Part shown: piece by piece, positions 4,504 to 36,498 of the stretch | How positions within the stretch are numbered: the first letter of the stretch is position 1 | Layout of the letters: each line of letters opens with the position of its first letter | DNA from: a virus | DNA length: 50,261 bases | Reading direction: 5' to 3' (one strand) | Virus record (IMG/VR): IMGVR_UViG_3300037508_000928 | Span: 1-50,261 of that record | Notes under the pieces: model-generated | The model's database searches: none | Told to the model about the DNA's origin: nothing | Seen by the model: only the letters and a program-made list of their open reading frames with translations | Position numbers and translations under genes: made by a program

Positions 4504-4512
4504 CCTAACCTG

Positions 4513-4546
4513 ATCGGGGGGAGCGGCACGGGTCGCTCCCCCCGAT
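4513..4546 (+). other. Strong GC hairpin after the capsid gene
   Basis: A 13-bp perfect inverted repeat (4513-4525 with 4534-4546) has an eight-base loop and six consecutive G-C pairs. No T-run follows, and the next gene starts 12 bases later. It probably stabilises the capsid mRNA 3' end or partly reduces read-through into the tail genes. Confidence 0.6.
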
Positions 4547-4557
4547 ACGAGGGAACA

Positions 4558-7422: not shown

Positions 7423-7427
7423 ATACC

Positions 7428-13429: not shown

Positions 13430-14557
13430 ATGCCGATTACGGTCAACTTCAAGAGCCTGGGCGAGTCTGCCACGTATCCCGATGGCACGACCGAGGATGT
13501 GATCCACGACGATTACCAGCGCCGTCAATTCCGTGGTGGGTACAAGGCCAACCCGATTCAGTCGATCATGGGGCTGATGGAACACATCACCTCGCGCCCG
13601 ACTGCCCCTACGCCAGCGAGCGTAGACGGGGCCAGCGTTATCGGCCTAGCGCCTGACCAGACGACGGCGCTCCTGGACCGCGTGCAGCGCACCAACGAAG
13701 TTGAGCAGAACGCCTACCAGCAGGAGATTGCACGCGCGGCACAGGTCAAGGAGGCACAGGCCCAGCGCCAGTTCTCGATGCAGTCCCAGCAGCAGGACCA
13801 GCAGTTCCAGCTTGACCGAGACAAGGAGCAGGATGCCAAGACGACGAAGGAGAAGCTGGAAGGGACAGTGAAGCCAGACGGGCAAGGGGGCTACGACTGG
13901 GTACGCCCTGACCCTGTAACGGGTAAGCCACTCATCGACAAGCTCCAGAAAGGCTCGAACCAGTGGAAGTCGCTCAACATGCCCGATGGCGGCGTGTCAC
14001 AGGTGGAGATGGACCCCAGCGGCAGGATGCTCGGCACTCCCCAGACCGTTATTGCTGGCCAGAAGGACACAACGAACTGGCAGCAGGTAGGAAGCCCCTA
14101 TCAGACCGCTGATGGGCAATTTGTCCAGAACCTCATCAATCCCGAGACGCGGCAAATGGAAACCAAGGCTTTGCCCATGCCAGCAGCAAAGCCGCAGGCG
14201 CTCAAGATGGTAAAGGATACGGCTGGCAACCTGTTCGCCCAGTACACAGACCCGACGACCGGGGCAGTCACCCTCCGCAAAGCTGAGGTTCCCCCCGAGT
14301 GGGTGACTGAGCAAGCGAAGAAGGACGGGATTAACCTCGACGACTTCAACTCCGAGTGGGATGCCACGGTGATGGAAGAATTCGACGGTGTTATCGAGGC
14401 TGAAGATGTCCCCGCCGTCACGGAGCGGGTGCAGGCGAGGCTGTTGGCCAAGCAGACAGCAGTGAATTCCATGAACACGCCAGCGGAAGTAATCTTCGTG
14501 GGTAAGGACGGCAAACGGTATCTCGATCTCGGAGACGGTACAGCGGAGGAGCTTTAA
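13430..14557 (+). CDS. Internal virion / ejection-associated protein 3
   Basis: The protein has 375 residues. It has a Gln-rich coiled helix at about residues 85-135 (QFSMQSQQQDQQFQLDRDK), then a Gly/Pro/Asp-rich region with short strand repeats (GQGGYDWVRPDPVTGKP), and a helical end. The stop overlaps the start of the giant gene (TAATG), so the two are translated together. I take it as a partner or linker of the giant ejection protein; no enzyme motif is visible. Confidence 0.55.
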   Translation: MPITVNFKSLGESATYPDGTTEDVIHDDYQRRQFRGGYKANPIQSIMGLMEHITSRPTAPTPASVDGASVIGLAPDQTTALLDRVQRTNEVEQNAYQQEIARAAQVKEAQAQRQFSMQSQQQDQQFQLDRDKEQDAKTTKEKLEGTVKPDGQGGYDWVRPDPVTGKPLIDKLQKGSNQWKSLNMPDGGVSQVEMDPSGRMLGTPQTVIAGQKDTTNWQQVGSPYQTADGQFVQNLINPETRQMETKALPMPAAKPQALKMVKDTAGNLFAQYTDPTTGAVTLRKAEVPPEWVTEQAKKDGINLDDFNSEWDATVMEEFDGVIEAEDVPAVTERVQARLLAKQTAVNSMNTPAEVIFVGKDGKRYLDLGDGTAEEL

Positions 14558-17500: not shown

Positions 17501-20500
17501 CATCTAATGGTTTTGACGAAAGCGGCAACATACCGCGCCGTGGCATTCCTTCGGGCTACGCGCAAGACGGGGATGTTTACACCTTTCAACTTGACTCCCC
17601 CACCCCCGGCTTCCTTCCCCAAGCACAGGAACTCGCCAACCCCAACTGGAACAAGCCAGCCGCTCCTGACGCCAAGCAGCAAGCCCTCAAGGATGCCGCT
17701 CAGAACCTTGCAGCCATCGAGGGCAAGGCCGAGCCAGTCATAAGCGCTGGGCAGAATACCGCGTTCGACAAGCTGACGGAGAAGCCGAAGGAGCGTAAGC
17801 CGTGGTTTGAAAGCTATGAAGAGCTTTCTGAGCACTTGGCTACCGCCCTTCCCGATCACAGCGTTTCCCACGTTGGTCAATCAGTTTCAGTTTACGGGAA
17901 GTACAACGACCAGCAGTTGGTGAAGGAGTGGGCCGAAGCCCTTCCAATGCGCAGCGACGTGGACGCACTGGTCAAGAAGTTGCGCCCGCAAGAGCAGCCT
18001 GTAACTGATTCTGCTCCTGCCCCCACCCGCGCTGAGAAGATAGCCCAGCGCCGCGCGCGCGCCAAGGCAGAGCTTACGTCCGTTCCTGATGTGGCGCCGC
18101 AGACGGCTGGCCCCCGTGGACAGTACGCAATCCCTGGGGAAGAGGAAACGGTTCGGGCTCAGGAACAGGAAGTCGTGGACCGTGCGGCGTTCCGGGACAG
18201 GGTGCTGAGTGAATTCGAGGATCAGGAACTGACTGACCGTATTGTCACGGACCTTTGGCCCGCCGCGCGCAAAGCACCGGAATACATCAAGAAGGGAATG
18301 AGTATCGAGGAGACGACGACGACGATTCGGAATAACACCGACGAAACCTACCTTCGAGACTATCCCGACCTAAACGAGAACGCCCTCCTGCGCGTGCTGG
18401 ATGGACACGCTGAAGACATTGGCGCCAAGGACACCGCAGGGTTCCGTAGGCAGGTGGACAACCTTCAGACCATGCACCCCGACCTGCCCCGCAAGTCCAT
18501 TGAGCGCATGGTCGAGGCTGTTGACGCCGGTGATGCGAGAGCCGTCAAGGCGATCCTTCACCCAGGCAACCCCGGCTCTCACGACATATTCCAGGCCATA
18601 ACTGGCTATGAGTTGCCTTCTAAGAGCAAACGCACCCAGAAGGCAGTCCACGCAATTGTTGACGAGTGGTGGGGGAAGCTGGCGCCTGAGTCGCGGGTGC
18701 CAGAACTGGAACTAGACACATCACTTCCTCGTGAAAAATACATCAAGCTGTTTGTGGACAGGGACCCTGCTGTCCAGGCGGCAGCGGACGATCAGGTTGA
18801 GGATGCACGCCATCACGCTGAACGTGTAGCAGAAGGCCGCTGGCTTGCTGCTAATCCGAAAGCCCCCGTCGATGACATGAATGGGTTCCTTGCTGGAAAG
18901 ATTCCGATGCAGGCCGGGAACATCAAGAAGCAGTTGGCCAAGACGTACAACTTCAACGGCACGGAGTTGCAAACCTACCAAAGCTTCATCGAGAAGCATT
19001 GGTCGGACGGCAGCCTGATTGCGCAAATATACGATGACGGTGAAACGCGGCAGCACATCGTCAATGGCTACAACCTGCCAAAGACTGCATTCGATTATGC
19101 CCAGCACCTTCTCGGTGACAGAGCAATTCAAGAAACTCCCTTGCAGGCCAAGCAGGCGGAACTGCGTGACCTGATGCAGAAGATCAGAAATGAGAGTCAA
19201 TTCAACCGTAAGATTGAGCTCAATCAGAAGATCAACAAGGTGCGGTCTGAGATAGGTGAACTCAAGCGCCCCGACTGGGTAAAAGACGCGATTGCTGATA
19301 CAATCAATACGGAGACACCGACCGATGGACGCGAAGATATTCAAGGACAGCCTGACGAACAGCCCGATGTGGTGGGAGGCACTGGCGCACCTCGAAGAGA
19401 TGCAGCCCCGTCTTCTGGAGACTCTTCTGGCGAAACCGGAGAAGCTGGTGGAACTGCTGGATCACAGGACACAGCAGGCGATAGACGCGATATACGACCT
19501 TCAACAGAAGGGGATGAGCTACGAGGAAGCGGCGGAGCGGGTAAGCCCGGACGTACTTCGCCCAGGGTGGGAAGCCCAAGGGGGACTGCCGGAGATTCCA
19601 CTGAACGGGATGGGGGAACGGAAGCTGGCGGCGTTCAGAAAGGCAGCAATGGAGTAAAGGCGGAGAAGGTTGACGACGGCAAGCGGAACCACCGCATTGG
19701 CGAAGATGACACCATCGCGCCCGATGGCCAGATTTCCAAGATTAAAGCCAACCTGCGCGCGCTGCGAATCCTCAAGGAACTCGACCAGCAGGAGCGGGAT
19801 GCCACTCCCGAAGAACAGAAGGCTCTTGCCCAGTACACGGGTTGGGGACATTCCCCACAGGTCTTCGATGAAAAGAAGGCGCAATGGTTTGAAAACGAGT
19901 ACCCCTACTCCGTCTCCCAGCGGGACACCAAATGGGGCGACAAGTTCTACCAGCACTACAAGGAGGCTAAGGAGCTTCTTTCCCGCTCCGAGTGGATGGC
20001 TGGGCTCAAGTCCACGCAGTACGCGCACTACACGGCGAAGAACGTCGTGCAGTCCATGTGGAAGATCGCGGAGCGGCTTGGCTTCTCGGGCGGGCGCGTG
20101 CTCGAACCCGGCGCCGGTGTGGGCAACTTCCTTGGCCTGATGCCGGACGGCTTCAAAGGCACCACCTTCGTTGCCGTCGAACTTGACGACACGAGCGGGC
20201 GTATCCTGCAAAAGCTGTATCCGAAGGCCAAGATATTCATTAAGGGCTTCCAGGACGCCAAGATTCCGCCTAACTCCGTTGACTTGGTGATAACGAATGT
20301 CCCGTTCTCTTCCAATGGGCCGAAGGATACGCCGTATCCCACGCTGAACCTGCACAACTACTTCTTCGCCCGGAGCCTTGATGTGCTCAAACCTGGCGGC
20401 ATAGTGGTGGCAATCTCTACCCATTACACGATGGACGCCAATCCGAAGCAGCGGGAGTTTCTGGCGAGCAAGGGCAATCTTGTCGGCGCGATTCGATTGC

Positions 20501-23500
20501 CCAACAATGCTTTCAAAAAGAACGCAGGCACCGATGTAACGACCGACATCATCATCATGCAGAAGCCTACACAGAATTTTACCAAGGGCGAGTCATGGGC
20601 TGCCTTGGCCAACGTCGGCACGGACGATGCACCGATCATGGTGAACGAGTATTTTGCCGCGCATCCTGAAATGGTGCTCGGCACTCATTCCATGGAAGGC
20701 AGTATGTACGGCGGTGACGGCAAGGAGTACACCGTACTGCCCACAGGCGACGACCTGACCGAGCAGATACGCGCGGCAATCGAGAAACTGCCCGAGGGCA
20801 TAGTTGGAGCCCACGTCGCTGACGACATTGATTTCGGCGCTATCGACGAAGCTGCTGGTGAGAAGGAGGGTTCCTTCCACGTCAAGGGCGGCAAGGTCGT
20901 GCGCGTTGAAAGTGGTAGCTTCGTCGATGCTGAATTATCTGCCGATTTGCAGGCGCGCGCCAAAGGCTTCATTGGACTGCGCGATCATTACATCAAGCAT
21001 CTGGCGCTGATGCGCAAGCCAGAAACCACCGACGAGCAATTTGCTGACTCGATGGCCGAACTGAATCGGCTCTATGATGCCTATGCAAAGAAGCACGGCG
21101 GCGTCAACGAGAAAAATACCAGACCCTTCCGCAGCGACCCAGGCTACTTCCTGCTGGCCGGTACGGAGAAAGTCACAACAACCATCAATCCTTTAACGAA
21201 GAGGAAACTCGAAACCACTTCAAAGGGTGACGTTTACTCGAAGCGCACCATTGACCCCAGCGTGCGCCCGACCAAGGCAGGTAATGCCGAAGACGCCCTT
21301 AGAATCTCGCTCACATATCGCGGGCAGATTGATTCGGATTACATGGCGCAACTCACAGGGGAGAGCGCAGAGGATACGCTCGCGGAGTTATCTTCCAGTG
21401 GGCTTATCTTCATCAACCCTGAGAATGGACTCGCAGAGCTTTCCGCGTTCTACCTGAGCGGCAACGTCAAAAAGAAGCTGGCCATAGCAAAGGATGCAGG
21501 CGAGGACTACAAGGCGAACGTCGAAGCGCTGGAGAAGGTGCAGCCGTCCCGCGTTCCGTATTCGAAGATCAAGCCTCAACTGGGGGCAACTTGGATACCC
21601 TCGACGCTGGTACAGGAGTTTGCCGATAAGGTGCTGGGACGCGGCTTTGGGGCAATCAAGGTTTCCTATCTTGGGAAGGCTGCTGACGCTTGGCTTATCG
21701 AAACCAAGGGTAGTGGCGCCAAGCGCGACTTTCTTGGTCCGCGTGGGCTCCAAGAATTTGCGGTAATCGAGAAGTCAAAGACCAACCCTGATGCTCCCGG
21801 CTACATGCGGCGACATGCACTGGACGTTCTTAATGGCGTGCTGAATCTGAAAGACCTCATCATCAAGGACGAGGTGGAAGATAAGAAGTACGTTACAAAC
21901 GAAGAAATGACGCGGGTGGCGCGCATCAAGGCCGAGCAACTTAAAGAAGCGTTCATAACCTGGATAAACAGCAACCCCGACCGTATGCTCGCCATCGAGG
22001 ATGCTTACAACGAGCTCTACAACTTCTACGTTCCTCCCGTTTATGACGGCTCGCATTTGGTCTTGCCGGGTAAGTCGAACACCGTCAAGTTATATGACCA
22101 CCAGTACAATGCCATCTGGCGCATGATCGTGGAACGCCGTGGGATGGTGGCCCATGCGGTAGGTGCTGGCAAGACCTTCGAGATTATCGGGGCATGTATG
22201 GAAATGCGCCGATTGGGCATCTCCAAGAAACCAATGATCGTGGTTCAGAATTCTACGATGGAGCAGTACGCGCGCTCCTTCACAAAACTCTATCCTTCTG
22301 CGAATGTCCTCGTGGCAGACGTGGAAAGTCTGAAGAAGAATAAGCGCAAGCAGTTCCTTGCACACATCGCCGCGAGCGACTACGACGCGGTGATCATCGC
22401 TCAAAGCCAGTTTGACCGTCTGCCCAGCGACCCCGTTACTGAGACGACCGTGACCCAGAAACTCATTGATGAACTGCGCATATCGCACAACGAATTGAAA
22501 GAGGCCGAGGGAGAGCGTAGTCAGTCGGTGAAACAACTGGCGAAGTCCATCGAAAAGCTGGAAGACAGACTTAGCAAGATCACGGCAAGCATGAAAGGGC
22601 GGCAGGACGACGTAATCTACTTCGAGAGCCTTGGCGTGGATACGCTGTTCATTGATGAGGCGCACAACTACAAGAAGCCGCCATTCGTCACGAAGATGCC
22701 CAGCCTCCTCGGGCTGAACAAAGACTCATCGGATATTGCCACGAACCTGATGTTGAAAGCGCATTACATCCGGCATATCAATGCTGGGAAGGGCGTCTTC
22801 CTTGCCACTGGCACGCCGGTAACCAACACGCTTGGTGAAGCGTGGCACATGCTGAACCTTACGAGCCCAGACGTACTCGCGGAATTCAACGCAGAGACAT
22901 TCGACCGCTTTGCTTCTACCTTTGCCAAACGCACAGTGGAGTGGAGCCAGAACGCGGGCGGTTCATGGGTGCCCAAATCGGCACTGACCAGATTCACCAA
23001 CGGGCAGGAATTGATAAAGCTCATACGTTCCCAGTGGGACGTGCTCATGAAAGACGACCTTGATGAGCAGATGATTGCAGCAGGCAAGGACATGCCCAAG
23101 CTGGAGGGGGGCGCGCCGAAGATTATTTCAGTAGAAGCCACGCCCAGAGTCAAGGAATTCTCCGATTGGGCTACGCGCGTCTATCAAGACTTCACGAAAC
23201 TGACCGGAGAGGCGAAGCAAGAGTTCGGCTATATCCCTGTAATGCTTTACGGCGCCATGAAAGCGGTAGCCACTGATTCACGCCTCGTGGACCCGACTGC
23301 CCCTGACGAGGCAGGTTCCAAAGTAAACGTGATGCTGAAAAATGTTATCGAGATTTACGATGACACCAAAAAAAACAAGTCCACGCAGATGATCTTCTGC
23401 GATATGTTCAACCCCTTCAAGATGGATAAGTTACACGCCTTCGCTGGGGGTATTAAGGACGATGATGCAGACGGAGACATCATCCTTAATGATGGTGAGG

Positions 23501-26500
23501 ATGTCGAGGAAACTGCCGCCGATAAGGAAAAAGAGCGCGAGTCCGAGGTCAACGGCTTTGTGGTGAACGACATCATAGCCAAGCTGGTAAAGGCGGGGGT
23601 GAAGCGGGAAGAGATTGGCGTAATGGCCACGGCGAACACCGACGCTAAGAAGCAGGCCATATTCGACGGCATGAATTCTGGGTCAATTCGCATCCTGATT
23701 GGTAGCTCGCAGCGCATGGGCGTCGGCGTGAACGCCCAGGACAAGATGATAGCCCTGCACCATCTGGATACTCCGTGGTATCCAGCGCTGCTTGAACAGC
23801 GCGAGGGTCGTATCCTCCGCCAAGGGAATGAGAACCCAGAGGTAAAAATCTTCTCCTATGGAATGAAGAAGACGCTCGACTCTGCCATCTACTCCAAAGT
23901 GCTCTACAAATCAAAGTTCATCCAGCAGATTCTCAGTGGCAAGATGAATGATGATGAATTTGAAGACCCGGCTGGGCAGATTGTCGTCTCTATGGAAGAG
24001 GCGATGGCCGCATTTGCTGACGACCCGAGACTCTTCCGAAAGCTGGACATACAGAACGAACTACGCGATCTGGAAATCCGCCGACGTTCCTACCTCGACA
24101 ACGTGGTGCGCGCCAAAGAAAAGATAGCCGAGCTTGCACGCGGTATCGAATACTGGAACGCCCGCATTAAAGACGCGGCAGAAGCTATTCCTGGCTCCAA
24201 GGTAAGCGGCAACCCCACCATAACGGTGGACGGCAAAGACTACACGGCGAAGACGTTCAAGGACATCTTCGAGAAGCAGGTAGAGACTGTACCGGCGAAA
24301 CTTGCCGCCGACAACATCGCGGCGGCAGACAGCTATACAATACAGCAATGGGCAGAGGGTAAAGCTGAAAAGCCAGCAAGCGTCTTCCTTTATGGCGAGA
24401 TTGGTGGGAGCGATATTAAATTTGCCGTGGTCGCTGGGAGGGCTCCAGGACAGATTACTGATGGCGATTCGATAAAGACCGATTACTCCATACGCATTTG
24501 GACCCCCAGTGTCGGTGTGCGGTCGGAAGCGAAGAAGATCGAATCGTTCATCAACGCCTTGCAGGCAGTTGAACGTGAAACGCAGAAGAAACTGCGCGAG
24601 GCCCAGGATACGCTTGCGGCTAGGAAGCAAGACCTTTCTGTCGCTGAGGAGATGGCGAAGGGTAGAACCTTCCCACAGGAAGATGAATACCAGTCCTTGA
24701 AGAAGGAACTGGACGAATTAAATGAATCGCTGGCCAAGGCACAGGAACTGGACTCGGACGGCCCAGCGCCAGCCACGGCCATGGACCCGATTGGTGATCT
24801 CGCTCGGCTGCTGGATGCAGGGAAGCCGTTCGCCCAGGCTACCTACGAGCGGGCCAAGCCATACCTGCGGGCACTGTACGACGCGGCCAAGGACGCCAAG
24901 GCCTTCATCGCCACGGTGGTGAAGCAGATTGGCGAGCACGCCCGCCGCTATGCCACCAAGGCCGCAATCGAGTTTCGCCGCGCTGGGAACCGGGGGGCGG
25001 CGCTGAATCCGTTCGGTGAGAAGCCCAAGCCAAAGGTTACGCCCTCGGGCGCACCGCCTGTTGGGGAATTCCGCCAGGATGGCGACGACCCCGACCAGCC
25101 AGCACGCCTGCCCCAGTCCGCCATGCTGCGCATGGTCAAGAACCTTCTGGGGAACACGCCCGACATTGTGAAGCGTTTCCCGAGGAAGCCTGAAAGACTG
25201 GGCGTGTTCAATCATGGCTTAGGCGATGCCACTATCCGCCTGCGGGCTGACCTTGCCATTGGCGAGCGCGTATCTGAGAGCGTCTCGAAGAAGCCTTTCG
25301 GTGAAGATGAGAAATCCGACTTCATTGAGGCAGTGGCCGAGCAGCTTGACGTTTCCACTGACGAGATTGTGGTGCGCACCGAGACTGAGCGCTCGGGCGG
25401 TCGCACGGTATACGTCATGCGGGCCTACCTGCGCGACGAGGATTACGCCGCGCGCGTGTTCGCCCACGAGTTGGGGCACGCGATTGACTACCTGCCAGAC
25501 GGAACACTCAAGCGCGGCAATCTCCTTGGGCGCATTGCCAAGCTGCAAATGTACCTGAAGACGTCCCTGGCGCCTGATCCTGAATCGCTGGAGGAACCCT
25601 TCACGAAGCAGGAGCGCGCGAAGTGGCGCCGGGAGGCTGCTGCTGATGCAAAGCGGGACTATGGCCCGTTCGACAAAGACCAGAGCGATGAACGGTCCTT
25701 CTACACGAGGGAGTATTACAGGTATCGTCTCATTCAGGAAGCCGAAGATCGTGGGATGCTGCTGGAGAACGAGATCAAGTCTGCGATTCCGGGCGCATGG
25801 AAAGTAAAGTATCCCGGCGTCCGCGACGAACTAAAGGCACTCACCCACTGGTGGAACCCCTTCGACGCAGACCGTGACCCGAAGTACACCAAGTATCGGT
25901 ACTCTGGCAAGGAACTCTATGCCGAGGCCATGAGCGTGCTTCTCAACAATCCGCGCATGTTCGAGGCGAAAGCCCCTGAGTTTGCGCGCGGCTTCTTCGC
26001 CTACCTTGAGCGCAACCCCAAGGTGCAGGAACTCTATGAGCAGATTCAGACCGAACTCCACGGTGGGACCTTCGAGGGCACCGTGCTCGATGACCTGTAC
26101 GCCATGCAGGAGCGAGGCGAGATCAAGCGCAAGGCAAAGCACAAGCGCGATAAGCAGCCACTAAGCAAGCAGGTCAACGACTTCTTCCACGATCTGAAGC
26201 TCACCCTGATTGACCGGCAGGCAGATGTTTGGCGGACGGGCGATTCCTGGCTTGACCCCTACGTGTGGTTGCGGGAGATGAAATATCTCCACTCGTCTCA
26301 TCATGGGTTTCAGCGCGATATTCAGAAGATGGTATTGAACCCGCTCCGTGTTGTCGGGTTGAGCGAGAAAGACTTTGGCGTCTTCCTGTTCTTGCGCCGT
26401 ACCTCAACCGAGCGCAAATACCTATTCAACCCTATGGGCGTTACCGAGTCCGAATCTAAGAATTTGCTAGAGGAACTAGAGGGGCGCGTGGGTAGTGATG

Positions 26501-28620
26501 GAATGGATGCTCTGCGGAAGGCTGCCAACGAGTACCACGATTTGCGCAAGGAGTATGTTTTCCCGCTGCTTCGCAAATCACGGATATTCTCCAAGGAGAT
26601 GCTGGAGCTCATTGAGAGCAACGAGAACTACGCCACGTTCAACGTGATTGAATATATCGAGGAATTCTATTCCACGAAGTCAAACGCAGACAATGCTCGT
26701 ATCTTCCATCAGTTGGGCACACTGAAGGATGTCGAGAACGTCTTCGAGGCCACGATCCTGAAGGACATGGCTCTGATGCGGCAGGCCACGAAGAACAAGG
26801 CCAAGATGACGGTGATTGATGTCGGCAAAGACATGGGCGAAATCGAAGATGCCCCGATGCGCCGCAAGGCGGGTGGGGAGGCATTCTACGAAGAGCCGAA
26901 AGACCCGAACCTGACGGTCATGAAATACTCGCTGGACGGCAAGGTGCAGGCCGTTATCATCAACAAGGACATCGCACAGAATTACGAGAGTAATCTGGTC
27001 GAGATGAACAATTTCACCAACATCGTCCAGTCACTCTACTTCTCTGGCTGGTTCCGCAAGTCGCTCACCACATGGAACCCCGGCTTTGGCCCGATTGCTT
27101 TCGGGAAGGATGTCTGGGGCAGTTACAAGAACCTTCCTGGAAAGAACCCGCTCCGTACTATCGAGAGCCTTATCATGACGGCACGGGATGCCTACATTGA
27201 TGTTGCCTTAAAACAGTCCACGATGCTGACGCATTTCGCTTACAAGAACAACTTGCTGATCCCCGACATCTCCTACGACGCTGGAAGTGAACTTGATTAT
27301 GAGACGGAACTTGAGCGACAGACTTGGGTCCATGGGCTGATTGCTGATAAACACCCAAACAGAAACATTTTCTTGCGCACGCTCAAAAAGACGGGCGATA
27401 CAGTAGAAGCGTGGAACCTGTTCTTCGAGCGCTGGTCGAAACTGGCTGGCACCTACCGCATGATCAACGAAGGTTACTTCGAGCGGGAGGGTATGCAGGC
27501 CAGCCAGCGCATCCGCACACAAGCAGGCACTCCTGATGCGCTTGCTGGGGGCAAGTGGCGGCGCCCCATGAACGGCATATTCCTGTTCTCGAATATCGGG
27601 ATACAAGGCCTGGAGGCTACGTACCGGGCTGCCAAGGAACAGAAGCTGTCCTATCTGTTCAAGGTGGCTGCGGTCGATGTCGCTCCCAAGCTGCTGATGC
27701 GCGGCTTCCAAATGGGGCTGGCAGGCTGGCTGTTTGGGCTGGACGAGGAAGATGACTGGCTGAAGCGATTCTACAACGCGGTTCCCGACAGGGACATGGC
27801 GAACTACACTATCATCCCTCTTGGTTTCAGGAAGGATGGCACGCCGGTCTATATCCCACTTCCTTCAGACCACGTTGGCATGTTCTTCGGTGGGCTGGCA
27901 TGGGGCGTAACGCGCCCATTGGTCGATGAAAATATCGACATGAGCGAAATTGGACGCACGTTCGTAAACCAGAGCCCAATCAAGCCTGACGGATTGACGC
28001 TTCCTCCTGCGCTGGCCCTTGACCTCATGCTGCTGGCCACGGGGGTATCTCCCTACGACACGTGGCGTGGGACCCCTGCGATTAGCCGTGGTGCGATGGA
28101 TGCGGGTGTCGTTGCTCCCGCCATGCGAGGAGAGATTCCTCCCGCCGTCAAGGAAATAGCCTTGTACGAAGCACAGAAATACTTCAGCACGGTATTCGTT
28201 TTCAACAGCGATGCTGCAAAGGACGATATGTTTAACGAGATAGGGCGTATGCCGGTTGTCGGCCCCATCCTGCGTCGGTACGTTCGAGCCTCAGACAAGG
28301 GTATCGAGCAGCGCATGAGGCGGGAGAAGTCGAGCATCCTGGCCGAGCAGGCAGCGACTTCCGAGCAGATTGGCGGCATCATCACGAAGCAGATCAAGGC
28401 GGCTGGCCGGGGCGGGGACCGCATCGACGCCTGGCGCGAAGTGAACCGGCAGGTCCGAGAGGGGAAGTTGCTGTATGATGGCCACAACTGGCGCACGATG
28501 ACGGGGCTGGTGCAGCGGCGATTCAATCACGCTTGGACCATGACCTACGGCACGCCAGAAGAGAAGCTGAAGGCGACCACGAGCAAGGCGGTTCGGCGGG
28601 AAATGACGACCGACAACTGA
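14557..28620 (+). CDS. Giant virion protein: transglycosylase, metallopeptidases, DarB-like methylase-helicase
   Basis: The 4687-residue protein takes up 28% of the genome. Residues 37-157 are an SLT transglycosylase (catalytic E65 in AKAESNF, GVMQLMP 80-86). Residues 660-780 hold HEIRH (681-685) with E735/E736, in AT-rich DNA. Residues 1590-1700 are a disordered linker that overlies a nested gene. Residues 1720-2030 are an N6-adenine methylase-like domain (LEPGAGVGNF 1849-1858, NVPF 1914-1917). Residues 2500-3110 are an SNF2-like helicase (GAGKT 2536-2540, DEAH 2700-2703, QREGR 3081-3085). HELGH is at 3637-3641 with E3790. The C-terminus (about 4150-4687) resembles polyvalent-protein end domains such as LPD38. 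P1 DarB, which rides in the virion and blocks restriction, has the same methylase-helicase pair. Likely role: ejected with DNA to cut peptidoglycan and protect it. A GGAGGAG site precedes the ATG. Confidence 0.85.
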   Translation: MAKGDIVPIASVQQGGTATAPMESQTAKRRVPIESVADPVVSKVLAAAKRYNVNPTLATAVAKAESNFVQQSVSPVGATGVMQLMPGTAKDLGVDPWNEDQNIDGGVRYLGQMLERAGGDVDKALEYYNFGMGNVDAGKPLPAETVQYKARIKKLMGITDPPITAAQAEAIIPKQQSNFSKAMGMGDVQAPVGWQPTGEDVAAPVAAVQDALHAIPKFPGERALAAQGERYMEFLNPTTPAGPWERGFTQGATNAATQGNAVKRVVVGGLADAGSGLLSSVATLGADRKTADQIAADKAILSEASLETDKQNLGAVGRVLRPATQNAVSNIAQVGVASAGGFPVIATQFMTTSYDDGLRQAQAAGLQGEDMLNYARRQSLYEGGVMAAFQAVGLPGLEKLPFMAIAPAVVNQVKTSLAPAMKRTLMTFGQELPEETITWALQTADSQMSNVRKPMTTEEYTKEWLNLALETALSVGASSTRDLARGVRDSVVSDFSGIVQPDTFNPEMQLGGVLPQPAAEVPVEADIAASQQATTPESPIVDIPAGEANPEEPEQPKKKAKLIYADMPTEQLQSLLEQGGMANPVKVAIQRELANRIAPEQPVAPKQPWDMTREEYDQSRVDELNALNPQLGGRLKLEILSEEEQAQRPTLDSAPGAKSVGGHYGSTITRAQNAPSGTASHEIRHMIDLLLGGNQVTAYVNDLKTKFKDRFSLLTDYLKSARKDGKIGGRTTVDEETAQMVLHAFYKDREGLRSASPDIVQFLEEMGADKYSHLQDSHKSKVEQALRDGKPVPPAVLAEYPDLAEKYGKPTPGQQMLRRPVAERLVPELQRLHFPTTFTGQPTPGQQMLRRPQGEAPQDTLSQPETSEQVQGNTPAQADTPESTPIAAPVNQPLELQSPDAVRKAAAAPKIEELKRQYEEARLVNNVRDGLRIEAQLQGGPEFTDPAAQAAVKQQLVAVDQAISERRPVNAEAMRDWANVATSNGFDESGNIPRRGIPSGYAQDGDVYTFQLDSPTPGFLPQAQELANPNWNKPAAPDAKQQALKDAAQNLAAIEGKAEPVISAGQNTAFDKLTEKPKERKPWFESYEELSEHLATALPDHSVSHVGQSVSVYGKYNDQQLVKEWAEALPMRSDVDALVKKLRPQEQPVTDSAPAPTRAEKIAQRRARAKAELTSVPDVAPQTAGPRGQYAIPGEEETVRAQEQEVVDRAAFRDRVLSEFEDQELTDRIVTDLWPAARKAPEYIKKGMSIEETTTTIRNNTDETYLRDYPDLNENALLRVLDGHAEDIGAKDTAGFRRQVDNLQTMHPDLPRKSIERMVEAVDAGDARAVKAILHPGNPGSHDIFQAITGYELPSKSKRTQKAVHAIVDEWWGKLAPESRVPELELDTSLPREKYIKLFVDRDPAVQAAADDQVEDARHHAERVAEGRWLAANPKAPVDDMNGFLAGKIPMQAGNIKKQLAKTYNFNGTELQTYQSFIEKHWSDGSLIAQIYDDGETRQHIVNGYNLPKTAFDYAQHLLGDRAIQETPLQAKQAELRDLMQKIRNESQFNRKIELNQKINKVRSEIGELKRPDWVKDAIADTINTETPTDGREDIQGQPDEQPDVVGGTGAPRRDAAPSSGDSSGETGEAGGTAGSQDTAGDRRDIRPSTEGDELRGSGGAGKPGRTSPRVGSPRGTAGDSTERDGGTEAGGVQKGSNGVKAEKVDDGKRNHRIGEDDTIAPDGQISKIKANLRALRILKELDQQERDATPEEQKALAQYTGWGHSPQVFDEKKAQWFENEYPYSVSQRDTKWGDKFYQHYKEAKELLSRSEWMAGLKSTQYAHYTAKNVVQSMWKIAERLGFSGGRVLEPGAGVGNFLGLMPDGFKGTTFVAVELDDTSGRILQKLYPKAKIFIKGFQDAKIPPNSVDLVITNVPFSSNGPKDTPYPTLNLHNYFFARSLDVLKPGGIVVAISTHYTMDANPKQREFLASKGNLVGAIRLPNNAFKKNAGTDVTTDIIIMQKPTQNFTKGESWAALANVGTDDAPIMVNEYFAAHPEMVLGTHSMEGSMYGGDGKEYTVLPTGDDLTEQIRAAIEKLPEGIVGAHVADDIDFGAIDEAAGEKEGSFHVKGGKVVRVESGSFVDAELSADLQARAKGFIGLRDHYIKHLALMRKPETTDEQFADSMAELNRLYDAYAKKHGGVNEKNTRPFRSDPGYFLLAGTEKVTTTINPLTKRKLETTSKGDVYSKRTIDPSVRPTKAGNAEDALRISLTYRGQIDSDYMAQLTGESAEDTLAELSSSGLIFINPENGLAELSAFYLSGNVKKKLAIAKDAGEDYKANVEALEKVQPSRVPYSKIKPQLGATWIPSTLVQEFADKVLGRGFGAIKVSYLGKAADAWLIETKGSGAKRDFLGPRGLQEFAVIEKSKTNPDAPGYMRRHALDVLNGVLNLKDLIIKDEVEDKKYVTNEEMTRVARIKAEQLKEAFITWINSNPDRMLAIEDAYNELYNFYVPPVYDGSHLVLPGKSNTVKLYDHQYNAIWRMIVERRGMVAHAVGAGKTFEIIGACMEMRRLGISKKPMIVVQNSTMEQYARSFTKLYPSANVLVADVESLKKNKRKQFLAHIAASDYDAVIIAQSQFDRLPSDPVTETTVTQKLIDELRISHNELKEAEGERSQSVKQLAKSIEKLEDRLSKITASMKGRQDDVIYFESLGVDTLFIDEAHNYKKPPFVTKMPSLLGLNKDSSDIATNLMLKAHYIRHINAGKGVFLATGTPVTNTLGEAWHMLNLTSPDVLAEFNAETFDRFASTFAKRTVEWSQNAGGSWVPKSALTRFTNGQELIKLIRSQWDVLMKDDLDEQMIAAGKDMPKLEGGAPKIISVEATPRVKEFSDWATRVYQDFTKLTGEAKQEFGYIPVMLYGAMKAVATDSRLVDPTAPDEAGSKVNVMLKNVIEIYDDTKKNKSTQMIFCDMFNPFKMDKLHAFAGGIKDDDADGDIILNDGEDVEETAADKEKERESEVNGFVVNDIIAKLVKAGVKREEIGVMATANTDAKKQAIFDGMNSGSIRILIGSSQRMGVGVNAQDKMIALHHLDTPWYPALLEQREGRILRQGNENPEVKIFSYGMKKTLDSAIYSKVLYKSKFIQQILSGKMNDDEFEDPAGQIVVSMEEAMAAFADDPRLFRKLDIQNELRDLEIRRRSYLDNVVRAKEKIAELARGIEYWNARIKDAAEAIPGSKVSGNPTITVDGKDYTAKTFKDIFEKQVETVPAKLAADNIAAADSYTIQQWAEGKAEKPASVFLYGEIGGSDIKFAVVAGRAPGQITDGDSIKTDYSIRIWTPSVGVRSEAKKIESFINALQAVERETQKKLREAQDTLAARKQDLSVAEEMAKGRTFPQEDEYQSLKKELDELNESLAKAQELDSDGPAPATAMDPIGDLARLLDAGKPFAQATYERAKPYLRALYDAAKDAKAFIATVVKQIGEHARRYATKAAIEFRRAGNRGAALNPFGEKPKPKVTPSGAPPVGEFRQDGDDPDQPARLPQSAMLRMVKNLLGNTPDIVKRFPRKPERLGVFNHGLGDATIRLRADLAIGERVSESVSKKPFGEDEKSDFIEAVAEQLDVSTDEIVVRTETERSGGRTVYVMRAYLRDEDYAARVFAHELGHAIDYLPDGTLKRGNLLGRIAKLQMYLKTSLAPDPESLEEPFTKQERAKWRREAAADAKRDYGPFDKDQSDERSFYTREYYRYRLIQEAEDRGMLLENEIKSAIPGAWKVKYPGVRDELKALTHWWNPFDADRDPKYTKYRYSGKELYAEAMSVLLNNPRMFEAKAPEFARGFFAYLERNPKVQELYEQIQTELHGGTFEGTVLDDLYAMQERGEIKRKAKHKRDKQPLSKQVNDFFHDLKLTLIDRQADVWRTGDSWLDPYVWLREMKYLHSSHHGFQRDIQKMVLNPLRVVGLSEKDFGVFLFLRRTSTERKYLFNPMGVTESESKNLLEELEGRVGSDGMDALRKAANEYHDLRKEYVFPLLRKSRIFSKEMLELIESNENYATFNVIEYIEEFYSTKSNADNARIFHQLGTLKDVENVFEATILKDMALMRQATKNKAKMTVIDVGKDMGEIEDAPMRRKAGGEAFYEEPKDPNLTVMKYSLDGKVQAVIINKDIAQNYESNLVEMNNFTNIVQSLYFSGWFRKSLTTWNPGFGPIAFGKDVWGSYKNLPGKNPLRTIESLIMTARDAYIDVALKQSTMLTHFAYKNNLLIPDISYDAGSELDYETELERQTWVHGLIADKHPNRNIFLRTLKKTGDTVEAWNLFFERWSKLAGTYRMINEGYFEREGMQASQRIRTQAGTPDALAGGKWRRPMNGIFLFSNIGIQGLEATYRAAKEQKLSYLFKVAAVDVAPKLLMRGFQMGLAGWLFGLDEEDDWLKRFYNAVPDRDMANYTIIPLGFRKDGTPVYIPLPSDHVGMFFGGLAWGVTRPLVDENIDMSEIGRTFVNQSPIKPDGLTLPPALALDLMLLATGVSPYDTWRGTPAISRGAMDAGVVAPAMRGEIPPAVKEIALYEAQKYFSTVFVFNSDAAKDDMFNEIGRMPVVGPILRRYVRASDKGIEQRMRREKSSILAEQAATSEQIGGIITKQIKAAGRGGDRIDAWREVNRQVREGKLLYDGHNWRTMTGLVQRRFNHAWTMTYGTPEEKLKATTSKAVRREMTTDN
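16500..16915 (+). other. AT-rich inserted cassette within the giant gene (HEIRH domain)
   Basis: By hand count, 16621-16900 is about 39% GC, while both flanks are clearly near 60%. The frame stays open and encodes the HEIRH metallopeptidase-like domain. Codons here favour A/T endings (AAA, TTA, GAT, CTT) unlike the rest of the gene. This marks a recent horizontal insertion of a single domain. Confidence 0.7.
16983..17112 (+). repeat. Direct repeat encoding PTPGQQMLRRP twice
   Basis: Two copies of about 32 bases (16983-17014 and 17079-17110) differ at two or three positions and encode PTPGQQMLRRP at residues 810-820 and 842-852 of the giant protein. The 64 bases between them encode a different linker. 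The pair sits right behind the AT-rich cassette, so it may mark a duplication or recombination junction. Confidence 0.7.
19325..19657 (+). CDS. Nested out-of-frame gene inside the giant gene
   Basis: ATG 19325 opens 110 codons in the +1 frame relative to the giant gene, with GGAG ten bases upstream and a TAA stop at 19655-19657. The product is compact, helical and non-repetitive: MDAKIFKDSLTNSPMWWEAL, then LLETLLAKPEKLVELLDHRT, QQAIDAIYDLQQKGMSYEEA and a basic end RKLAAFRKAAME. In the same DNA the giant frame reads as Gly/Ser/Asp/Thr/Arg low complexity. By hand count, third positions are G or C in about 81 of 110 codons here, against about 42 of 110 in the giant frame. That is what a real gene in this frame predicts. 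The function is unknown. It may also be an ancestral separate gene bridged when two larger genes fused. Confidence 0.65.
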   Translation: MDAKIFKDSLTNSPMWWEALAHLEEMQPRLLETLLAKPEKLVELLDHRTQQAIDAIYDLQQKGMSYEEAAERVSPDVLRPGWEAQGGLPEIPLNGMGERKLAAFRKAAME

Positions 28621-28725
28621 TACCTCAAAAGTACCAATTGACGGTAAAAAGGGCACGATTTGAAATGTAAATCCAGTGTTTCCGTAGGGTAAGCTATACT
28701 GCGTCAACATCATGTCAAGAGTCTC
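28621..28725. other. Gap after the giant gene with possible promoter
   Basis: The stretch lacks a clear terminator. TTGACG at 28638-28643, 17 bases and TGAAAT form a moderate sigma70-like promoter. GCGTCAACATCATGTCAA at 28701-28718 resembles the GCGTCAACACCCTGTCAA found in the divergent promoter at 41841-41858 (two differences in 18 bases), so the same regulator may act at both places. Confidence 0.4.
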
Positions 28726-28765
28726 CTATACTGTAAGTGTTTGCAGCACAACACTTAAAGAATCG
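28726..28765. other. Candidate attP core: lox-like inverted repeat
   Basis: Two 16-base arms (28726-28741 and 28750-28765) match as inverted repeats at 13 of 16 positions, including a perfect inner TAAGTGTT/AACACTTA. They flank an asymmetric eight-base centre TGCAGCAC. Inverted arms of 11-13 bp around a 6-8 bp crossover region are the normal core of tyrosine recombinase sites. It lies 67 bases upstream of the integrase gene. An RNA hairpin or operator is the alternative; no T-run follows. Confidence 0.5.
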
Positions 28766-28767
28766 CC

Positions 28768-28797
28768 TTGACGTACCTGATACCATAACGATACCAT
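28768..28797 (+). promoter_or_regulatory. Integrase promoter with GATACCAT direct repeats
   Basis: TTGACG at 28768-28773, an 18-base spacer and TACCAT at 28792-28797 form a moderate sigma70 promoter. Two GATACCAT copies (28779-28786 and 28790-28797) are 11 bases apart, about one helix turn, and overlap the -10 box. They could be integrase arm sites or an autoregulatory operator. Confidence 0.5.
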
Positions 28798-28832
28798 CCT
28801 GCCAGCTTAATCGCGTTGATTTTGGAGGCAAT

Positions 28833-29885
28833 ATGGCTATCAAGAAGGCAGTCGAATACCGGGGAGTCACGCTCTCCAAGCCGAAGGGGAGCAAGTTCTA
28901 CTCGATGCGCTGGCGCAATGCGGCAGGCCAGCAGGTGCGCCGCTCGACGGGGACATCTGACCCGGCGCTGGCCAAGCAGATTCGAGACTCCCTGGCGGAA
29001 CAGCTTCTCCGCTCGCGCTTCAACATCGAGCCCACGGCGAAGGACTTCACTCCTGACGACGCTTGGGACTTCTACATTGAGCACCAGTCCGAAGTGTCCG
29101 AGAGGACGCTCTATCACGCGCTTAGTGCCTGGAGGCGCTTCTGGAAGGTGACGGGCTCACCTACGCTGGCTTCCGTGCAGCCAGTTGACATCCTTCGCTT
29201 CCAGAAGCTAATGCAGGCCGAGGGGCGAAAGCCCAGCTACGTGAACAACATCATGCGGGTTGTCTCATCGGTCTACGTCAAGTTGGTGCGCTGGGGGGAA
29301 CTCACTTGCGCCAATCCCTTTGCCGCTGTGGACAGGGTAAAGGAAGGAGCGCCCGCCCCGAAGTATCGCCCGTGGCCAGAAGTCGAGGCGATGCTCACCG
29401 TGGCGAAGAAGCAGGGCGACGACATCTACCTGTTTTGCATCCTGTGTTCTCATGCCGGAGCCCGCCACGGGGAGGCTATCGCCAGTCGGTGGGAAGATGT
29501 TGGATGGGAAAACGGCAGCTTCCGCATCCGTGGAACAAAGACGCGGGGGAGTGCAGCCACAATCCCGCTCCACGACGCGCTACGGGCTGCGCTGTGGCCT
29601 TATCGCAAAGAGAGCGGGTACATCGTGGCAAATGGCACCGACGCCCATCCTGACCCACTACGCCCTCACGCGCGCTGGGGGTATCAGTCACGCTGGGAGA
29701 CATTGGTGAAGGCAACCGGATTCAAGGGGTCGCCGCACACCCTTCGCCACTCGTTTGCAACTCACTTGCTCGAACTGGGATATGACCCAGTGTTGCTTGT
29801 GAAGCTGATGCGGCATACGAATCTGGCGATGACTTCGCACTACGCAAACCTGCTGGCCGTCGTCCCCACGATGGACAGATTCTAA
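28833..29885 (+). CDS. int: Tyrosine-family integrase
   Basis: The protein has 350 residues and integrates the phage by strand exchange between attP and attB. The catalytic set is visible: R211 (in AGARHGE), H302-x-x-R305 (HTLRHSFATHLLELG), H328 (LMRHTN) and the nucleophile Y337 (SHYANL). An N-terminal arm-type domain (residues 1-60) and core-binding SAM-like domain (70-165) precede the catalytic half. I chose ATG 28833 for the TTGGAGG site nine bases upstream; an in-frame ATG-like start 96 bases earlier lies inside the candidate attP. It shows that the phage can be temperate. It follows the giant late gene in the same direction. Confidence 0.93.
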   Translation: MAIKKAVEYRGVTLSKPKGSKFYSMRWRNAAGQQVRRSTGTSDPALAKQIRDSLAEQLLRSRFNIEPTAKDFTPDDAWDFYIEHQSEVSERTLYHALSAWRRFWKVTGSPTLASVQPVDILRFQKLMQAEGRKPSYVNNIMRVVSSVYVKLVRWGELTCANPFAAVDRVKEGAPAPKYRPWPEVEAMLTVAKKQGDDIYLFCILCSHAGARHGEAIASRWEDVGWENGSFRIRGTKTRGSAATIPLHDALRAALWPYRKESGYIVANGTDAHPDPLRPHARWGYQSRWETLVKATGFKGSPHTLRHSFATHLLELGYDPVLLVKLMRHTNLAMTSHYANLLAVVPTMDRF

Positions 29886-29926: not shown

Positions 29927-30017
29927 CTCGTGATACTGTGAGCATTAGGCAGGTGCGAGTCGCGCGGGGAAGTTGCCTGCGCCAATGATCTCGCATATTC
30001 ATTAATTAGAGGTGTTC

Positions 30018-30179
30018 ATGATGGAAACCATTATTCTTAAATGGTTGGCAGAATCATGCCCAAACCCCCCCGCAGTAAACTACGAGCGGGCTGAAGAATC
30101 ATGCCCAAACCCGCCCGCAGTAGACTACGAGCGGGCTGAAGAGGCTGGGAAGCATTTGTTGGTGCTGGAGAAGGATTAG
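30018..30179 (+). CDS. Small protein with a tandem 15-residue repeat
   Basis: The 53-residue gene starts at ATG 30018 with GAGGT upstream. A hydrophobic helix (METIILKWLA) is followed by two copies of a 15-residue unit, ESCPNPPAVNYERAE and ESCPNPPAVDYERAE, then a helical tail. Each unit has one Cys and a CPNPP turn. It is too short for family assignment. It converges tail to tail with the next minus-strand gene by four bases. Confidence 0.55.
   Translation: MMETIILKWLAESCPNPPAVNYERAEESCPNPPAVDYERAEEAGKHLLVLEKD
30051..30140 (+). repeat. Two tandem 45-bp repeats
   Basis: Units 30051-30095 and 30096-30140 differ at two positions only. The unit length is 15 codons, so the frame is kept. Each holds a CCCGC...GCGGG inverted pair that could fold. 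High identity suggests a recent duplication. Confidence 0.9.
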
Positions 30180-30369: not shown

Positions 30370-30750
30370 TTATTCTGCCTGCTTGCGAATCTCAGCTTCG
30401 TAACCGCGCGCGTAGTTCGTGACAAAGCCAAGAAAGCGGTTGGCCACGAACTCGTCACTCATGTCGCTGAATATCAATTCCGTAAGCAGCCGCATCTCTT
30501 CACCCAGCATACGTCGGGGCTCCGATACTCGCTTCGTACTTACTTGAGGTAGGTCTACCCAGTAGTCGTGCTCGCGCAGCCACTCTTCAAGCGCTTCGCG
30601 GTATTCCACGCCGAGCGGCCCGCCAGACATGAACGTCGAAAATGTCTGGCGGCTGCATCCGATAGCCTCTGCGATTTCATATCGTCGATGCTTTCGGATG
30701 GCCACCTGCGCATATTTTCTGAGCGCCTGCTTGTAATCTTCTTCATCCAT
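30370..30750 (-). CDS. Phage repressor, HTH type without protease domain
   Basis: The protein has 126 residues. I chose the ATG at 30750 (MDEEDYKQ) because AAAGG lies ten bases upstream and the longer frame would run through the operators. Residues 15-45 contain a helix-turn-helix (RRYEIAEAIGCSRQTFSTFM). The C-terminal half is helical and likely forms the dimer. There is no LexA/CI-type Ser-Lys peptidase domain, so RecA-driven self-cleavage is not expected. It is leftward and divergent from two HTH genes across the CACGTAC sites, the usual immunity switch layout. Confidence 0.75.
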   Translation of the reverse strand: MDEEDYKQALRKYAQVAIRKHRRYEIAEAIGCSRQTFSTFMSGGPLGVEYREALEEWLREHDYWVDLPQVSTKRVSEPRRMLGEEMRLLTELIFSDMSDEFVANRFLGFVTNYARGYEAEIRKQAE

Positions 30751-30786
30751 TAAGTCAATACCTTTCAACAACTTACACCGTATAAG

Positions 30787-30848
30787 CACGTACTCACACG
30801 TACAAACGCGAAAATGTGCTTGACAATACACGTACAAACGATTACTAT
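30787..30848. promoter_or_regulatory. Immunity operators and early promoter
   Basis: CACGTAC occurs three times (30787-30793, 30797-30803, 30829-30835), about one and three helix turns apart; the last two extend to ACACGTACAAACG. The rightward promoter is TTGACA 30820-30825, 17 bases, TACTAT 30843-30848, with the third site inside the spacer. A leftward promoter for the repressor (TTGTAC...TATACG) overlaps the first two. Repressor binding would block the rightward genes. Confidence 0.65.
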
Positions 30849-30869
30849 TCGGCCATTGGAGGCCGTACA

Positions 30870-31166
30870 TTGATTATACACCAAGAATCACCGACTTATC
30901 CGGCGAATGAGAAAATATTTAACGTAAAGTCACTGGCGCAACACCTTGACATCTCGCGCGATGCCGTTCGGCGCCTTGTTGCCGAGGGTATGCCGCACCT
31001 TCGTATCGGCTATCGCACTGTGCGCTTTGATCTGCCTACCGTCATGGCGTGGCTGGACAAGCGCAAGCAAATCTCCCTCTCTGAGTGTGCCAAGGGTGCC
31101 TCCCCTTGCACACGCTCTCTCCCGGCTGGCACCGAAGGCGCCCCCTCCCTCGGTGCCAGCTCATGA
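30870..31166 (+). CDS. Excisionase/Cro-like HTH protein 1
   Basis: The protein has 98 residues. I chose TTG 30870 because GGAGG lies eight bases upstream and the promoter's start point falls near 30855; the longer frame would start inside the promoter. Residues 14-65 are a winged HTH of the excisionase/MerR type (FNVKSLAQHLDISRDAVRRL, then RTVRFDLPTVMAWLDKR). The end is Ser/Pro/Ala-rich and disordered. As the first gene after the operators it may be the lytic regulator or excisionase. The stop overlaps the next ATG (ATGA). Confidence 0.65.
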   Translation: MIIHQESPTYPANEKIFNVKSLAQHLDISRDAVRRLVAEGMPHLRIGYRTVRFDLPTVMAWLDKRKQISLSECAKGASPCTRSLPAGTEGAPSLGASS

Positions 31167-31438
31167 TTACCAAGTACCTCTCTGTCCGTGATGTGGCAAC
31201 CGCGCTTTCGATGACGAGCGCTGGCGTCATAGCCATGATTCACGAAGGGGTGTTCGATAGCGCCTTCCGCACCGGCGACCACAAGCGTTGCCCGTGGAAG
31301 ATTGCCCGCGACGAAGTTGACTCCTTCATTGCCAATCGCCAGGAAGCTGCTCGCCGGGAGATCAACCTGCGGCGCACGGGGCAGGCGATGGCCAGCCAGA
31401 TACTCCGCGAACTCGAACGACCTCGCCGGTCGGCTTAA
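31163..31438 (+). CDS. Excisionase-like HTH protein 2
   Basis: The 91-residue protein starts at ATG 31163, overlapping the previous stop. An N-terminal HTH (YLSVRDVATALSMTSAGVIA) followed by a wing-like segment (RTGDHKRCPWKIARDEVDSF) matches the excisionase/MerR layout. A basic C-terminal helix follows. Tandem with the preceding HTH gene, the pair could split Cro and Xis work. Which does which cannot be seen. Confidence 0.6.
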   Translation: MITKYLSVRDVATALSMTSAGVIAMIHEGVFDSAFRTGDHKRCPWKIARDEVDSFIANRQEAARREINLRRTGQAMASQILRELERPRRSA

Positions 31439-34593: not shown

Positions 34594-34886
34594 TGGATTG
34601 GATCAATCTCTGGGAGTGGGTGCAGGACATAGAGCCTGAGCAGCTTCCAGAAGTGCCGTGGGAGTACCTGCCGGGGCGAGTGATAACGGACAACAAGGCA
34701 TTCGCTGAGTATGCCAGTAACGTTTGCCGCCCCGGCGATGGAGCCGAGCGTTCAGGGAGAGCGCAAGAAATGATGCGCGCCTTACATCGTGTGATTCAGA
34801 AGAAAGAGTACACCTGCCCCGTATGGGGACGGGAATGGATGGAGCGACAGAATGCAAAGCGTAATGCAAAGTGTAATAAGCGCTGA
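34593..34886 (+). CDS. Hypothetical early protein
   Basis: The 97-residue protein starts at ATG 34593 overlapping the previous stop (TGATG). It is Trp-rich at the front (MDWINLWEWVQDIEPEQL) and basic at the end (RQNAKRNAKCNKR), the latter from a 12-base tandem repeat (ATGCAAAGYGTA). It overlaps the helicase gene by 35 bases. I recognise no family; a small nucleic-acid-binding protein would fit the basic tail. Confidence 0.6.
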   Translation: MDWINLWEWVQDIEPEQLPEVPWEYLPGRVITDNKAFAEYASNVCRPGDGAERSGRAQEMMRALHRVIQKKEYTCPVWGREWMERQNAKRNAKCNKR

Positions 34887-36498
34887 GAGCAAAGGCATGA
34901 ACCTGCGCCCCTACCAGGTTGAGTCCGCTTTTGCCATTCGCAAAGAGTGGCGGAAGGGCAATAAGCGCACGTTACTGGTGCTCCCAACAGGCACAGGCAA
35001 GACCATCGTGTTCTCGGCGGTAATCCGCGACGAGGTACGCGAGGGCGCTCGCTGCCTAATCCTTGCACACCGAGGGGAACTGCTCGACCAAGCTGCAGAC
35101 AAGCTGAAGAAGTCCACAGGCTTGGGTTGCGCCGTTGAGAAGGCTGACGTTACTTGCAAGGGGGAATGGTTTCGTGTTGTCGTGGGCTCGGTTCAAACCA
35201 TGATGCGCCAGAAACGGCTCGACACGTTTCCCAATGATTACTTCGATGTCATCATTGTGGACGAGGCCCACCACGTCCTGGCCGACAGCTATCAGCGCAT
35301 TCTCAACTACTTTGAGAATGCGAAGGTGCTGGGTGTTACAGCGACCCCTGACCGGGGGGACATGCGGGAACTGGGGGAGTTCTTCGACAGCTTGGCCTAC
35401 GAATACACGCTGCCGAAGGCGATCAAGGAAGGATTCCTCTGCCCTATCAAGGCCTTGACAATCCCCATCAAGATTGACTTAGGCGCCGTTGCCGTGCGCG
35501 CTGGGGACTTTCGCGCCGAAGATGTCGGCTCCGCTCTGGACCCCTACCTGCACCAGATAGCCGACGAGATGACTACGCATTGCCGGGGACGCAAGACAGT
35601 GGTATTCCTGCCACTGATTGCCACAAGCCAGAAGTTTTGCAACATCCTGGCCGACAAGGGATTCCGCGTGGCCGAGGTCAATGGGCAGTCCTTTAACCGC
35701 AAGCAAATACTGGACGACTTTCAAGAGGGCAGCTTCGATGTGCTCTGCAACTCGATGTTGCTGACCGAGGGCTGGGATTGCCCTACAGTAGACTGCATCG
35801 TTTGCCTGCGGCCTACGAAGATTCGCTCACTCTACTGCCAGATCGTCGGACGCGGTACTCGTATCCTCCCCGGCAAGGACCATTTGCTTTTGCTCGACTT
35901 CCTCTGGCTCTCCGAGCGCCACGAGCTTTGCAGGCCTGCGCACCTGCTGGCGCCGGATAAGGACGTGGCGGACATGATGACAAAGAACATAGCCGCTGCC
36001 GGGACTCCGGTAGACCTCGAAGAAGCCGAGGAACAGGCTATCTCCGACTCGATTGCCGAGCGTGAAGAAGCACTAGCCAAGAAGCTGGCAGAGCAACGCG
36101 GCAAGAAACTGAAGCTGGTAGACCCACTTCAATTTGAGATGTCCATTCATTCCGAAGAGCTCGTGAATTATGTGCCCGCCTTTGGTTGGGAGAGCAAACC
36201 GCCCACTGAGAAGCAGCGCCGCGACCTTGAAACGGCTGGTATCTTCAGCGCGGAGATAGACCACGCTGGCAAGGCAGAGAAGCTGCTGGAGACGGTAGCA
36301 GCACGGCGCCGGGACGGACTGACCACGCCAAAGCAGATACGGTTCCTCGAAGGCAAGGGATTCCGTGATGTGGGGACATGGGAATTCGACGCGACTAAGA
36401 AGCTGATTGACCGGATTGCAAGCAACAACTGGAAAGTGCCCTACGAGATTAACCCCCGCGACTACCGCCCTGTTCCAACACGAGAGATGGCGTTCTGA
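34852..36498 (+). CDS. SF2 DEAD/DEAH-box helicase
   Basis: The protein has up to 548 residues. Motif I LPTGTGKT, motif II DEAH, motif III TATPDRG, and the late motifs LLTEGWDCPTVDC and QIVGRGTRI are all present, as in SSL2/UvsW-like phage helicases that remodel forks and recombination structures. RPYQVESAF is the Q-motif-like front. ATG 34852 has GGAG upstream; ATG 34897 (MNLRPYQ) is a good alternative and would remove the repeat-derived front. The C-terminal 150 residues are helical and family-variable. The stop overlaps the next ATG. Confidence 0.85.
   Translation: MQSVMQSVISAESKGMNLRPYQVESAFAIRKEWRKGNKRTLLVLPTGTGKTIVFSAVIRDEVREGARCLILAHRGELLDQAADKLKKSTGLGCAVEKADVTCKGEWFRVVVGSVQTMMRQKRLDTFPNDYFDVIIVDEAHHVLADSYQRILNYFENAKVLGVTATPDRGDMRELGEFFDSLAYEYTLPKAIKEGFLCPIKALTIPIKIDLGAVAVRAGDFRAEDVGSALDPYLHQIADEMTTHCRGRKTVVFLPLIATSQKFCNILADKGFRVAEVNGQSFNRKQILDDFQEGSFDVLCNSMLLTEGWDCPTVDCIVCLRPTKIRSLYCQIVGRGTRILPGKDHLLLLDFLWLSERHELCRPAHLLAPDKDVADMMTKNIAAAGTPVDLEEAEEQAISDSIAEREEALAKKLAEQRGKKLKLVDPLQFEMSIHSEELVNYVPAFGWESKPPTEKQRRDLETAGIFSAEIDHAGKAEKLLETVAARRRDGLTTPKQIRFLEGKGFRDVGTWEFDATKKLIDRIASNNWKVPYEINPRDYRPVPTREMAF

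Follow-up and report, generated by a model that had tools for sequence, protein, structure and literature searches.

A probable phage attachment site with paired arm-type repeats and an overlapping putative integrase promoter upstream of a tyrosine integrase gene

Background

The intS promoter of KplE1 overlaps attL, with arm site P'1 covering part of the -10 element, and is repressed both by IntS and by the excisionase TorI (PMC2951348); overlap of int promoters with att sites was reported to be widespread in the same work. The P and P' arms of phage lambda measure approximately 140 and 80 bp, respectively (PMC7581858), and the attP of phage 186 comprises core, arm, and IHF sites as well as excisionase (RDF) repeats spaced by 10–11 bp (PMC7498355).

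The locus described here resembles the KplE1/HK620/Sf6 intS module in three respects: its putative att precedes int, transcription of int leads away from att, and a putative arm site overlaps the int -10 element. It differs in its paired TACC arm motif; no sequence relation to that module was seen, and no tRNA target is known here. With lambda attP and Int it would share a heterobivalent integrase, arm sites flanking the core, a long P and a short P' arm, and int on the P' side, but it differs in having 2 + 2 arm sites, in int being read away from att, in a promoter inside att, and in its extent (~180 bp compared to ~240 bp in lambda).

Repeats in the intergenic region

The window, i.e., the whole stretch of viral DNA analysed (50,261 nucleotides), carries a giant gene of 4687 codons (14557–28620), the stop of which is separated by 212 bases from an intact tyrosine integrase gene (28833–29885). 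Between the two, inverted arms at 28726–28741 and 28750–28765 agree at 13 of 16 positions around the centre TGCAGCAC (28742–28749), with the inner eight bases of the arms being perfect (TAAGTGTT/AACACTTA), and GATACCAT is present twice (28779–28786 and 28790–28797) at a start-to-start distance of 11 bp. Both observations, arms around an eight-base centre and two repeats one helix turn apart, had been made in an earlier reading of the letters alone (henceforth the sequence-only reading) and were confirmed at exactly these coordinates.

When the 212-bp region was shuffled 2000 times, an inverted repeat with 13/16 matching positions around an 8-bp centre was never obtained (0/2000), a perfect 8 + 8 inverted repeat with a spacer of 6–8 in 0.65% of the shuffles, and an exact 8-mer recurring at 10–11 bp in 0.55%. 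As five inverted repeats of this kind (13/16, 8-bp centre) are present in the whole 50-kb window, the palindrome by itself is unremarkable and the case depends on its context; it is noteworthy because of its location, its conservation in a related phage, and a matching pair of repeats further to the left (28619–28637).

This left pair consists of GATACCTC (28619–28626) and AGTACCAA (28630–28637), again 11 bp apart, and was absent from the sequence-only reading. On the plus strand of the 50-kb window, TACC-N7-TACC occurs only at 28621 and 28781, i.e., once in each pair, with a single further occurrence on the minus strand. The repeats are part of a larger element that spans 28619–28797, in which repeated putative arm sites flank the core region to the left and right, as in a lambda-like complex attP. 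The left pair is the strongest evidence for an attP served by an integrase with arm sites.

Comparison with a related phage

Searches of IMG/VR with the integrase, the structural proteins, and the att motifs yielded just two related contigs, found via the terminase (76%) and the capsid protein (84%). One of these (3300025585_001602) reaches from the end of the giant gene across the intergenic region and through 157 integrase codons; the N-terminal half of the integrase covered by these codons is 68% identical to that of the window. Conservation of the region is consequently a single comparison, in which the giant gene is 65% and int 67% identical, with intergenic identity changing in blocks: 88% at 28654–28711, 35% at 28712–28731, 83% at 28732–28760, 67% at 28761–28778, 74% at 28779–28797, and 31% at 28798–28832. 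Blocks were thus kept while linkers diverged, which is the pattern expected of protein-binding sites.

The two TACC pairs are 160 bp apart in the window and 161 bp apart in the relative, where TACC-N7-TACC is found at just the two corresponding places of the locus. The left pair of the relative, GATACCAA-tat-GCTACCAA (at its position 4798), follows directly after the giant gene and corresponds to GATACCTC-aaa-AGTACCAA in the window; the right pair reads GCTACCAC-aaa-GCTACCAT. The palindrome, perfect over its inner eight bases in the window, has 6/8 matching arm positions in the relative, in which its left half and centre are altered.

Integrase

The 350-aa integrase (28833–29885, plus strand) matched PF00589 (8e-22) and phrog_1 (9e-54), and all six catalytic residues of a tyrosine recombinase are present (R211, K236, H302, R305, H328, Y337). 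Among solved structures, matches were obtained to a Xer-like recombinase (4a8e, 9e-15) and to the integrase 5c6k (4e-14), which we take to be P2 Int; the match of the catalytic part to the latter is a feature shared with P2/186. The full-length structural model had a mean pLDDT of 47, and owing to this low confidence only the N-terminal and core-binding parts were used. In fold comparisons of the predicted model, residues 68–158 matched core-binding domains including that of lambda Int (1z1b, Z 10.5), and residues 10–63 weakly matched an AP2 domain (Z 5.2, 2.1 Å) and the arm-binding domain of the HAI7 integrase (Z 4.2, 1.9 Å). Modelled alone, the N-terminal domain had predicted strands at 7–9, 12–15, 24–28, and 34–38 followed by a helix at 44–63 (pLDDT ~88 over 10–60), and gave no significant match in fold searches. 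Three domains are thus predicted for the protein: an extra one at the N terminus, made up of a beta sheet and a helix, followed by those for core binding and catalysis.

In the loxP site, inverted arms enclose an asymmetric centre of 8 bp, a design that the palindrome shares, as the integrase does the core-binding fold of Cre. In contrast to Cre/lox, an extra N-terminal domain precedes the core-binding domain here and repeat pairs flank the core region, so the resemblance is superficial.

Proposed attachment site

The repeats very probably belong to the attachment site of the phage itself, and the integrase promoter would lie in it as well. More specifically, 28619–28797 is read, with a probability of roughly 80%, as the attP of a temperate phage whose integrase binds two kinds of DNA site, comprising TACC arm pairs, a core between them (the palindrome being the likeliest), and an int promoter overlapping the right pair. 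The sequence-only reading had proposed a compact attP holding the integrase promoter; the flanking conserved pairs, the three-domain integrase, and the promoter-like overlap speak for this, while the site is longer than proposed, extending left to 28619. The N-terminal domain of Int would bind both TACC pairs (left, 28619–28637; right, 28779–28797) as arm sites, and its C-terminal part would bind the inverted half-sites of the core between them and exchange strands. The likeliest core is TAAGTGTT-TGCAGCAC-AACACTTA (28734–28757), nested within the 13/16 arms spanning 28726–28765 and located in the stretch with 83% identity to the relative. With the palindrome as core, a long P arm of ~126 bp would lie to the left and a short P' arm of ~52 bp beside int; the palindrome is favoured because this combination of a long left and a short right arm matches lambda, and because KplE1 likewise has int on the P' side.

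The layout is known, and the sequences are new. Together with candidate excisionases and a candidate repressor (see below), attP and integrase would make up a nearly complete predicted integration module in a phage group almost without database relatives, and a further case, at sequence level, of an integrase promoter buried within its own attachment site. Were the target site found, the module could serve as a small integration tool.

Putative promoter and int expression

A putative sigma70-type int promoter, TTGACG-N18-TACCAT, is located at 28768–28797 on the plus strand (9/12 consensus positions); its counterpart in the relative, TTGACA-N18-TACCAT (10/12), is the sole promoter match in that region. 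It overlaps the right arm pair (28779–28797), which covers the -10 element, and this overlap, the one described for KplE1, is conserved in the relative. A ribosome-binding site, GGAGG (28824–28828), is situated four bases 5' of the int ATG. No counterpart was found in the relative for a weaker promoter candidate, TCAACA-N17-TATACT, which is situated to the left of the palindrome centre at 28704–28732.

Both candidate cores (the palindrome and the repeat discussed in the next section) are to the left of the best promoter candidate and the int ATG is to its right, so that this promoter would stay joined to int after integration. The proposal of the sequence-only reading that integration splits or silences int expression was accordingly not supported; it would apply to the weaker candidate alone. 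Silencing of int would rather come from Int, or perhaps excisionase, binding at the promoter. Since promoter and right arm sites are superimposed, Int probably represses its own gene, by analogy with what was shown for KplE1 intS (PMC2951348). The sequence, its conservation, the layout, and the integrase family are shown directly, and from them we infer Int binding to the repeats, the position of the core, promoter activity, and autoregulation.

Possible alternative core

The most conserved stretch of the region (28654–28711, 58 bp, 88% identity) contains the 50-bp segment with the highest identity in the 1.9-kb alignment and may hold excisionase or host-factor sites or a core of its own. Within it, ATGTAAA-TCCAGTG-TTTCCGT (28665–28685) forms a second inverted repeat, which competes with the palindrome, so that the palindrome's role as core is likely rather than settled. 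It is possible, though considerably less likely than not, that crossover takes place at this repeat in the same attP and that the palindrome is an accessory site for excisionase or Int regulation. The 7-bp centre is identical in both phages, the repeat is a perfect 7-7-7 in the relative, and its distance to the left arm pair is ~47 bp; against this, its arms match at only 5/7 positions in the window itself, and its near arm pair would lie on the side away from int. The corresponding 17-mer of the conserved block matched 37 genomes when searched against genome contigs, near the ~30 expected by chance from the size of the collection, and none of the matches extended.

Open frames on both strands were examined as a possible protein-coding source of the conserved block and of the palindrome, with no convincing case, and the open frame upstream of the int ATG is broken in the relative. 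Matches to the IHF consensus in the region were weak (two mismatches), and no IHF site is claimed.

Other readings of the repeats

For an attP with the palindrome as core, the TACC pairs are taken as Int arm sites; that they are excisionase (RDF) sites instead is unlikely. RDFs bind direct repeats spaced by one helix turn, as does Apl of phage 186 (PMC7498355), and RDFs are able to repress int promoters near att, both of which would suit the pairs. The pairs, however, flank the core region with two copies on each side, and the switch region of the phage (30787–30848) lacks the TACC motif and has CACGTAC repeats instead. In this respect the phage also differs from P2/186, as the P2-type RDF binds the switch with the same motif that it binds at att.

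It is more doubtful still that the palindrome serves as an operator for a repressor or as a transcription terminator and not as a recombination core: perfect 8 + 8 inverted repeats are a common operator shape, yet TAAGTGTT has no second copy in the phage genome, switch region included, which argues against an operator, and the RNA fold, no better than that of shuffles (z -0.5), and the lack of a T run argue against a terminator. With ~42–47 bp between each candidate core and one of the arm pairs, the layout is nearly mirror-symmetric, but that the conserved-block repeat and the palindrome are two alternative cores letting one integrase use two chromosomal targets or orientations is highly improbable.

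Searches for prophages, attB, and the host

No prophage, attL/attR, or attB was found in phages, plasmids, IMG/VR, or genomes. A DNA search for close phage relatives returned none, blastn of the att region against phages and plasmids gave nothing useful, and the best match of the integrase in phages and plasmids had ~25% identity. An additional 18-mer match in IMG/VR (L008) failed to extend and looks like chance. The terminase had no match in genome contigs. The integrase was searched in 369 + 399 + 385 sampled proteobacterial genomes with no hit at 1e-30, 1e-22, and 1e-20; the palindrome, allowing up to three mismatches, was absent from 399 genomes. No tRNA or Rfam RNA was detected within the window.

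In the alignment with the relative contig, ~142 bases separate the two ends of the window (1–4 and 50261), suggesting that the ends adjoin each other and that ~140 bases between them are missing; a simple check revealed no end repeats. The record is thus probably a nearly complete, circularly permuted genome, which fits an un-integrated phage with attP intact.

Neighbouring genes and other features

Downstream of int, a candidate lysogeny repressor (30370–30870, minus strand; weak HTH_23 match, E 0.004, below the Pfam cut-off) is divergent from two HTH_17 genes on the plus strand, both candidate excisionases. The first (30816–31166), the true start of which is probably further in, matched phrog_66 (excisionase and regulator) at E 5.5e-6 and scored better with phrog_57 (small terminase, E 1.7e-7). 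The second (31085–31438; HTH_17 E 8e-5, phrog_66 E 4e-4) probably also starts further in, at MITKYL. In the switch region between the divergent genes, CACGTAC is present in three copies (30787, 30797, and 30829), two of them 10 bp apart, and nowhere else in the window; the copies are placed around a good TTGACA-N17-TACTAT promoter (30820–30848). Between int and the candidate repressor, a small ORF (30012–30179) contains an in-frame 45-base tandem duplication (~95% identical) with the 15-residue repeat unit ESCPNPPAV-YERAE.

The giant gene encodes an N-terminal lytic transglycosylase as well as DarB-like helicase/methylase regions, and its product is ~34% identical, in the middle part, to giant proteins of several podophages. 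A DEAD/SNF2-type helicase (34852–36498) shares 64–68% identity with helicases of Paenibacillus, Bacillus, Streptococcus, and gut phages, whereas the terminase of the window had one distant phage match and the gene at 7383–9368 none; given this difference, the helicase is a widely exchanged replication gene. Directly after the major capsid gene, a strong inverted repeat (4510–4549; 14/16 positions, perfect inner eight, 8-base centre) is possibly a terminator.
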